NCBI GenBank assembly: GCA_013822765.1 | Contig: PNKY01000003.1 | Span: 434,001 to 498,000 of the forward strand | Direction of reading: 5' to 3' | Source of the DNA: Rhodospirillum sp. | GTDB lineage: Bacteria; Pseudomonadota; Alphaproteobacteria; Dongiales; Dongiaceae | DNA: 64,000 nt | Shown: positions 42,515 through 44,529 of the stretch, in pieces | Layout of the letters: every line of letters starts with the position of its first letter | How positions within the stretch are numbered: the first letter of the stretch is position 1 | Made by a program: the position numbers and the translations under genes | Notes under the pieces: model-generated | Database searches by the model: none | Seen by the model: only the letters and a program-made list of their open reading frames with translations | Told to the model about the DNA's origin: nothing

Positions 42515-43546
42515 CTACGCCGCGGCCTTGCCGCTCAGGTAGTCGCTCACCAGCTTCTCGGCGATCTGCACCGCGTTGAGTGCAGCGCCCTTCCGCAGGT
42601 TGTCGGAGACCACCCACAGCGAGAGGCCGTTGTCGATGGTCGAGTCATCGCGGATGCGGCTGACATACACTTTGTCCTCGCCGGCCGCTTCGACCTGGGT
42701 GACGTAGCCCTCGTCGACGCGGTGATCGATCACGGCGACGCCGGGCGCGGACTTGAGGATCGCGCGCGCCTCATCGGCGGACAGCGGACGCTCGAACTCG
42801 ATGTTGATCGCCTCGGCATGGGAGACGAACACCGGCACGCGCACGCAGGTCGCCGTGACCTTGATCTTGGGGTCGAGGATCTTCTTGGTCTCGACCGACA
42901 TCTTCCATTCTTCCTTGGTGGAGCCGTCGTCCATGAAGACGTCGATGTGCGGAATGCAGTTGAAGGCGATCTGCTTGGTGAACTTGGTGCGCTCGATCGG
43001 CGCGTTCGTGTAGATGCCGCGAGTCTGGTTGAACAGTTCGTCCATCGCTTCCTTGCCGCCGCCCGACACCGACTGGTAGGTCGCGACCACGATGCGCTTG
43101 ATCGGCGCCACGTCGTGCAACGGCTTCAGCGCCACCACCATCTGGATGGTGGAGCAGTTCGGGTTGGCGATGATGTTCTTCTTCTTGTAGCCGGCGATGG
43201 CGTGGGCATTGACCTCCGGCACCACCAGCGGCACGTCGGGGTCCATGCGGAAATAGGAGGTGTTGTCGATGATGACGGCGCCGGCCGCAGCCGCGCGCGC
43301 CGCGAACTCGGCCGAAACCTTGGCGCCGGCCGAGGACAGCACGATGTCGATGCCCTTGAAGTTGAAGGTGTCGAGACGCTGGACCTTCAGCACATCGTCC
43401 TCGCCGAACGAGACCTCGCCGCCGGCCGAGCGCTGCGACGCCAGGGCGACGACTTCGTCGACCGGAAAGCTGCGCTCCGACAGCGTCTGCAACATCTCGC
43501 GGCCCACATTGCCCGTGGCGCCGACCACCGCTACCCGATAACCCAT
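42515..43546 (-). CDS. asd: Aspartate-semialdehyde dehydrogenase
   Basis: The 343-residue NADPH-dependent enzyme makes aspartate semialdehyde, the branch point to Lys/diaminopimelate, Thr and Met. The nucleotide loop is GATGNVGREML at residues 9-19, and the catalytic cysteine is C131 in NPNCSTIQ. ATG 43546 has AAGGAG eight bases upstream. In alphaproteobacteria asd often follows leuCDB; here leuB lies about 10 kb away. Expression is likely controlled by the leader and terminator immediately upstream (43571-43701). Confidence 0.96.
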   Translation of the reverse strand: MGYRVAVVGATGNVGREMLQTLSERSFPVDEVVALASQRSAGGEVSFGEDDVLKVQRLDTFNFKGIDIVLSSAGAKVSAEFAARAAAAGAVIIDNTSYFRMDPDVPLVVPEVNAHAIAGYKKKNIIANPNCSTIQMVVALKPLHDVAPIKRIVVATYQSVSGGGKEAMDELFNQTRGIYTNAPIERTKFTKQIAFNCIPHIDVFMDDGSTKEEWKMSVETKKILDPKIKVTATCVRVPVFVSHAEAINIEFERPLSADEARAILKSAPGVAVIDHRVDEGYVTQVEAAGEDKVYVSRIRDDSTIDNGLSLWVVSDNLRKGAALNAVQIAEKLVSDYLSGKAAA

Positions 43547-43570: not shown

Positions 43571-43597
43571 AAAAAGGGCCGCATCTTGTTGCGGCCC
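43571..43597 (-). terminator. Intrinsic terminator 24 bases upstream of asd
   Basis: GGGCCGCA (43576-43583) pairs perfectly with TGCGGCCC (43590-43597) around a six-base loop. On the minus strand the hairpin is followed by TTTTTGCTTTT. It is oriented to stop transcription just before asd, so a transcript from further upstream must read through it to express the gene. Confidence 0.9.
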
Positions 43598-43626
43598 CTC
43601 GGTTCATCTGATCCTTTGTGATCCCG

Positions 43627-43701
43627 TCAGGCCGCGTTCCATCCCCCGGTCTTGGTGCCGGTGGTCTTCTTGGTCTTCAGGGTGATCACGGCCTGGATCA
43701 C
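43627..43701 (-). CDS. Thr/Lys-rich leader peptide upstream of asd
   Basis: The 24-codon ORF starts at GTG 43701, with AGGG nine bases upstream, and ends at TGA 43627-43629. It contains six threonine (all ACC) and four lysine (all AAG) codons, concentrated in ITLKTKKTTGTKTGG. Threonine and lysine are end products of the pathway that asd feeds. The stop lies about 30 bases before the terminator hairpin. The peptide itself probably has no other function. A second in-frame GTG at 43689 is an alternative start. Confidence 0.65.
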   Translation of the reverse strand: MIQAVITLKTKKTTGTKTGGWNAA

Positions 43702-43917
43702 GTTAAAAATCCCTAATCGGGGCCCATTTGCCCCGGTCGGCGGCTTTTTACAGGGGTTCGCCGATCCTGTCGACCGGAAAAGTGACGGGAAACCCGGCGA
43801 ATCGCCGGTAGCTCCCGCGTTCTCAGATTCTGGAAGAGTTATTCCTGAATCCGACCACTGCTATCTTCCCATGAAACAATCATGTTGAGAGGGCTGCAGT
43901 CATTCGGGAGAAGATTC

Positions 43918-44529
43918 ATGAAGCTCCATTACCACCCGCTGTCGGGCCATGCCCATCGCGTCCGCCTTTTCCTATCGCTGCTCGGCGTTGCGCACGAGCT
44001 GGCGCCGGTCGACCTCATGGCTGGCGCACACAAGCAGCCTGCCTTTCTACAGATGAACCGCCTCGGCCAGGTGCCGGTGCTGGATGATGACGGCACCATC
44101 GTCAGCGATTCGAACGCCATCCTGGTCTATCTCGCCAAGAAGCATCGCCGCGCCGATTGGCTGCCCGAAACCGCGGAGGGCGCGGCAGCCGTGCAGCGCT
44201 GGCTGTCGGTCGCAGCCGGGCAGATCGCCTTCGGCCCGGCGGCGGCGCGCCTCGTCACCCTGTTCGGCGCCAAGTTCAACGCCGAGGAAGTGATCGCGCG
44301 CGCCCATGCCATCCTGGCGGTGATCGACGCGGAACTCGAAGGCCGCAGCTGGATCGCCGCGCCGCAGCCGACCATCGCCGACGTCGCGCTCTACAGCTAC
44401 ATCGCCCGCGCGCCGGAAGGGAACGTCGATCTCTCCGCCTATCGCAACGTGCAGGCCTGGCTTGGCCGCGTGGAGGCGCTGCCGGGCTTCGTCGCGTTCC
44501 AGGCCTCACCGGTTGGGCTCGCCGCGTGA
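43918..44529 (+). CDS. Glutathione S-transferase family protein
   Basis: The 203-residue protein has a thioredoxin-like N-terminal domain ([21 protein letters not shown], then [19 protein letters not shown] with the cis-proline and Ser of the glutathione site) and an all-helical C-terminal domain ([13 protein letters not shown]). It probably conjugates or reduces electrophiles using glutathione. GGGAG lies eight bases before ATG 43918. A flavin-type oxidase gene follows 11 bases after its stop, and the two look like one transcript. Confidence 0.92.

Follow-up and report, generated by a model that had tools for sequence, protein, structure and literature searches.

A probable threonine- and lysine-responsive attenuator upstream of asd in a Rhodospirillum sp. 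and its alphaproteobacterial relatives

The asd gene of a Rhodospirillum sp. is very probably controlled by a ribosome-mediated transcription attenuator that senses the supply of threonyl- and lysyl-tRNA. The gene lies in the window, i.e., the whole 64,000-nucleotide stretch of DNA analysed here (contig PNKY01000003.1, positions 434,001 to 498,000), and supplies lysine, cell-wall diaminopimelate, threonine, methionine and isoleucine. It is preceded by a short Thr/Lys-rich ORF and a set of alternative RNA pairings, an arrangement that recurs in relatives, where the pairings covary. The search of the assembly for asd returned a single match, and a leader of roughly 165 nt on the reverse strand sits between a glutathione S-transferase gene and the asd start at 43546, with the following features (positions in the window):

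43882–44529, plus strand: glutathione S-transferase gene, divergent neighbour of the asd leader
43745–43773, minus strand: promoter-like TCGACA-N17-TAAAAA (putative −35 at 43773–43768, putative −10 at 43750–43745)
43718–43735, minus strand: small hairpin where the leader RNA probably begins (folding)
43711–43714, minus strand: AGGG, probable Shine-Dalgarno of the leader ORF, present also in the sister species L082 and L083
43627–43701, minus strand: leader ORF, GTG start, 24 codons, (M/V)IQAVITLKTKKTTGTKTGGWNAA (ORF list and sequence)
43689–43701, minus strand: segment 1 (GTGATCCAGGCCG), predicted partner of segment 2 when the leader is untranslated
43648–43683, minus strand: control codons 7–18, ACC CTG AAG ACC AAG AAG ACC ACC GGC ACC AAG ACC
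43618–43635, minus strand: segment 2, with the core GCGGCCU (43635–43629) as 5′ strand of the antiterminator
43591–43597, minus strand: segment 3 (GGGCCGC), 3′ strand of the antiterminator and 5′ arm of the terminator
43571–43600, minus strand: intrinsic terminator, stem-loop and U5 (terminator scan, folding, covariation)
42515–43546, minus strand: asd, aspartate-semialdehyde dehydrogenase (TIGR01296 asd_B, 463 bits), the putative regulated gene

An earlier note, made from the letters of the sequence, had described a 24-codon ORF behind a plausible ribosome site, containing six ACC codons for Thr and four AAG codons for Lys, and a hairpin with a U-run 24 bases before asd; both were recovered here (ORF 43701–43627 with AGGG at 43714–43711; hairpin 43600–43571, −19.7 kcal/mol). 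All six Thr and four Lys codons fall within codons 7–18, and the terminator reads GAGGGGCCGC-AACAAG-ATGCGGCCC with U5 at 43575–43571, i.e., a short ORF rich in codons for products of the pathway is followed by an intrinsic terminator located ahead of the first structural gene, as in ribosome-mediated attenuators. The 24 nt between the terminator and asd leave too little space for a separate asd promoter, which disfavours an independent transcription start left of 43571; such a start is what the note would have held against its own reading. The promoter-like sequence upstream of the ORF was not called by a consensus promoter scan of the window; its −35/−10 spacing is identical in L082 and L083. 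The arms of the small hairpin at 43735–43718 differ in sequence in these two species, yet still look pairable. The stop codon of the leader ORF (43629–43627) is overlapped by the core of segment 2. Where the window reads ACC GGG GGA TGG, another family member (L086) reads ACC GGG GGA TGA, and by this comparison the ancestral stop appears to have been replaced by TGG in the window's genus, so that the ORF now reaches into segment 2.

In the window, the antiterminator (43635–43629 with 43597–43591, GCGGCCU:GGGCCGC) was calculated at −20.1 kcal/mol and is thus balanced against the terminator, and the leader as a whole folds more stably than shuffled sequence (z = −3.4). The earlier claim that segment 1 and the terminator arm compete for the same segment 2 was right about the overlap, but the exact spans had to be corrected: the antiterminator uses 43635–43629, over the stop codon, and segment 1 uses most of that plus 43624–43618. 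The segment 1 pairing (43701–43689 with 43634–43618) consists of two 7-bp blocks with a 3-nt bulge between them, and it is strong in the window, where 1 of 100 shuffles was equally good. General conservation of segment 1 was not seen: in the sister species L083 the pairing is weak (86 of 100 shuffles as good), and among more distant relatives it is inconsistent and mostly unremarkable. The general switch seems to be a ribosome that occupies segment 2 when it is at the leader stop codon or close to it.

The dependence of the antiterminator on ribosome position was followed with a footprint model, in which only the RNA downstream of the ribosome was folded, in the state that precedes synthesis of the last terminator arm. 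Among the positions tested, those with codons 6 to 17 in the P site let segment 3 pair with segment 2. The antiterminator was allowed with every Thr or Lys codon (7–18) in the A site and was lost from P-site codon 19, i.e., the control codons end where the switch would flip. Across 28 leaders, 255 of 258 Thr/Lys codons lay in the stretch permitting antitermination by a loose criterion, and the model is crude in that several relatives still show the pairing at the stop codon. Pairing, covariation and this model are together consistent with an antiterminator that would exclude the terminator according to where the ribosome stands.

For the leader in the window we infer transcription start, translation, stalling, termination and a physiological response, which would proceed as follows. 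RNA polymerase would initiate upstream of the leader ORF, with a ribosome trailing it. When Thr or Lys is scarce, the ribosome would wait at codons 7–18 and leave segment 2 (43635–43629) unoccupied; the free segment 2 would pair with segment 3 (43597–43591), no terminator would form and asd would be transcribed. When both amino acids are ample, the ribosome would reach the stop codon and mask segment 2, the terminator would form and transcription would end near 43571. In an untranslated leader RNA of the window, segment 1 would hold segment 2, leading to termination. If the leader does stall on Thr or Lys codons, it would act as an OR gate that serves two end products where their synthesis shares a step, needing neither a riboswitch nor a repressor, with the sensor placed at the enzyme just before the Thr and Lys pathways part.

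For comparison, asd upstream regions were taken from the 17 genomes available for the family (a search at the level of the order gave the same 17), from 80 loci of named genomes, and from about 140 additional loci drawn from a sample across the class and from two other families. A fixed rule was applied, requiring an intrinsic terminator and an ORF that ends no more than 75 nt ahead of it and whose last 22 codons include four or more Thr and at least one Lys. Of 173 non-redundant alphaproteobacterial asd upstream regions, 25 scored by this rule, versus 0.05 expected from dinucleotide shuffles (1 of 3460 shuffled regions), and Thr/Lys-rich leaders occur in eight or more family-level groups within the class. 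With the covariation described below, this bears out most of the attenuation reading in the earlier note. Thr accounts for 34.5% and Lys for 15.5% of the last 18 codons in the 28 leaders of the terminator type; since Met and Ile reach only about 2.5% each, the signal is Thr plus Lys and not every product of the pathway.

What is kept among homologous leaders is the Thr/Lys content, while peptide sequence, length and N-terminus vary. The ORF persists in L082 and L083, and the L082 copy has lost 3 nt in frame and carries a synonymous change; eight other family members (L084–L090, L092) have longer ORFs with differing N-termini and Thr/Lys-rich ends, for example TTKTTGTKKTWS, MTTTTAPKTTGTKKTGG and TTKTATKTTGKTTGV. 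An equivalent arrangement is found in Telmatospirillum, Magnetospirillum, Kiloniella, Aestuariispira, one Sneathiellales genome and others; in the same-family genera L091 and L093–L096 the leader is absent. The note had proposed that relatives be aligned, and among those examined by eye none had the hairpin without a Thr/Lys ORF (15 other terminator-like regions lie outside that set). In L005, L087, L092 and L158 (and L063), the leader ORF is 50–75 codons long; its N-terminus resembles a signal peptide and precedes a Cys, and its C-terminus is mostly Gly-Gly. An exported leader peptide would be unusual. In L215 (1–450), a Thr/Lys leader ORF (LTTKTSTKTTGD) and a U-run hairpin lie about 300–390 nt before the start of the asd match, with additional sequence between the hairpin and that start. 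Upstream of hom, lysC and thrC, no Thr/Lys leader was found in the window's family, and control thus seems to be focused on asd.

Nearly every terminator-type leader carries, at the stop codon or a few bases past it, a segment that repeats the terminator 3′ arm and can pair with the 5′ arm. In the window's family this segment 2 reads GCGGCC, most other groups have GCGGGCC, and Aestuariispira has CGAACCUC, with the replaced pair CGAACCUC/GGGGUUCG in L036; segment 2 and the terminator thus change together, a check that the note had proposed. The complementarity of segment 2 to the terminator 5′ arm beats that of shuffles (Fisher p = 2.6e-12, an optimistic value because the loci are related). In alignment A1, 88% of the antiterminator cells are paired versus at most 42% in slid controls, and 98% of the terminator cells versus at most 58%. 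One column triple changes from C/G/C to G/C/G (11 versus 11 sequences) with both pairings preserved. As counted from these sequences, the covariation may rest on few evolutionary events, namely one large clade switch plus L036.

The earlier note named no described attenuator of this kind in front of a stand-alone asd gene, and a literature search (with the proteobacterial survey of Vitreschak et al. 2004 outside its scope) found none either, apart from a remark on a possible Thr/Lys leader peptide. In its account of SEP5, a small-proteome study of Sinorhizobium meliloti from 2023 describes an sORF with six Thr and three Lys codons near its 3′ end, located in the 5′ UTR of a gene termed “aspartate dehydrogenase” and proposed to be “possibly a leader peptide”; that account has SEP5 translated and reports its conservation in Sinorhizobium only (PMC10117765). 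The gene is probably asd, and SEP5, going by its description alone, is probably the same sensor as the leader in the window, both being Thr/Lys-rich sORFs before a (probable) asd. The translation of SEP5, as given there, provides independent experimental support for translation of such an ORF and means that the idea is not wholly new. The description of SEP5 includes no terminator, antiterminator or mechanism, whereas a terminator and an antiterminator are predicted for the leader in the window. What this analysis adds is a family of leaders that spans the alphaproteobacteria, a predicted switch between terminator and antiterminator, and a branch, Rhizobiaceae-like, that has the sensor but no U-run terminator.

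The foremost alternative, itself improbable, is that the ORF is an independent small-protein gene ending at its own terminator, with the asd promoter elsewhere and the closeness of the two incidental. The long ORFs with signal-peptide-like N-termini in L087, L092, L158 and L005 would suit such a gene, as would the detection of SEP5 as a tagged protein reported in the description cited above (PMC10117765). Nevertheless, only the Thr/Lys content of the peptide is conserved, Thr and Lys are products of asd's own pathway, segment 2 and the terminator co-vary, and the 24-nt gap has no room for a second asd promoter. A protein family search with the leader peptide gave no match, and the signal-peptide variants gave sub-threshold matches only. 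It is still less probable that the leader chiefly yields a small RNA and/or peptide that is released by termination and acts in trans, attenuation of asd being of secondary importance. The terminated RNA would be about 165 nt, and products of alphaproteobacterial trp leaders (rnTrpL/peTrpL of S. meliloti) do act in trans (PMC7298713), but the peptide sequence differs between genera and this analysis gave no pointer to targets.

A metabolite riboswitch (for lysine or another ligand) that drives the terminator next to a fortuitous ORF is very unlikely. A lysine riboswitch before asd would be metabolically sensible, yet the Rfam scan of the leader returned no family at its threshold and neither a lysine riboswitch nor a T-box at E values up to 10, and these two readings were rejected on that ground; no conserved aptamer-like structure was found besides the terminator, and the enrichment of Thr/Lys codons would be left unexplained. 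The best sub-threshold Rfam model was RF00506 (Thr_leader), which matched over its full length at 43688–43568 with 18.6 bits (E 0.34), short of its gathering threshold of 55 bits. This is the family of the E. coli thr attenuator thrL, a Thr-rich leader ORF with alternative hairpins and a U-run terminator and a target in the aspartate family. The leader in the window shares this architecture; it differs in that thrL regulates thrABC, not asd, and has Ile, not Lys, as the second amino acid. The leader would work like the Thr_leader family while falling outside it, and because no Rfam family recognises the copy in the window, such leaders are probably unannotated; the comparison across genomes yields a clear rule by which asd leaders can be recognised.

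The attenuator reading of the asd leader has precedents in the class: ribosome-mediated attenuation is known in alphaproteobacteria at trpL/rnTrpL (PMC7298713) and, in Caulobacter, at the ilv leader (PMC4117421), systems of the same class and type of mechanism that differ in amino acids and target genes. Threonine, lysine and aspartate are absent from the main text of a broad attenuator survey (PMC2965389), and a survey of Rfam regulators lists attenuators for His, Leu, Thr and Trp, plus Ile/Val and Phe, and not for Lys (PMC3766115).

In a Rhizobiaceae-like family, a Thr/Lys-rich ORF lies 97–168 nt before asd in 15 of 30 genomes (L222–L224, L232, L233, L235, L236, L238, L241, L242, L244–L246, L250, L251), compared with 4 of 1500 shuffles. 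Thr is mostly encoded by ACC in the terminator-type leaders and mostly by ACG in this group, where Thr and Lys are written mainly with other codons (ACG/AAA instead of ACC), and this difference between clades points to selection on amino-acid identity and not on a DNA repeat. A chance low-complexity stretch beside a terminator, for which one could cite that GC-rich genomes use ACC and AAG often, has a negligible probability and is refuted by the single hit among the 3460 shuffled regions, the recurrence across many families and this differing codon choice.

No U-run terminator was found in the Rhizobiaceae-like asd upstream regions. Downstream of the ORF, repeated CUCUCCCC/GGGGAGAG-type segments occur close to the ribosome site of asd; complementarity between the post-stop and pre-asd regions was no better than in shuffles (Fisher p 0.14), and RNAalifold gave no consensus structure for the group. 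In place of a terminator, segments of the CUC(U/C)CCCCGG type and the CCGGGGGAG type are seen there, after the stop codon and ahead of the ribosome site of asd, which points to another kind of expression platform. On balance, we lean towards regarding the asd leaders as a class-wide alphaproteobacterial dual sensor of Thr and Lys with at least two expression platforms: the window's lineage and many Rhodospirillales-like groups have an intrinsic terminator, and the Rhizobiaceae-like group would have a platform close to the ribosome site that lacks a terminator and acts at translation or through Rho. The apparent switch of platform would be a natural case of an attenuator that changed its mechanism and retained its sensor. 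In another family (L252–L255), a Thr/Lys-rich ORF upstream of asd, e.g., ATTTTPTTKKTATTV, is followed by conserved sequence lacking a U-run terminator, which is possibly a third arrangement.
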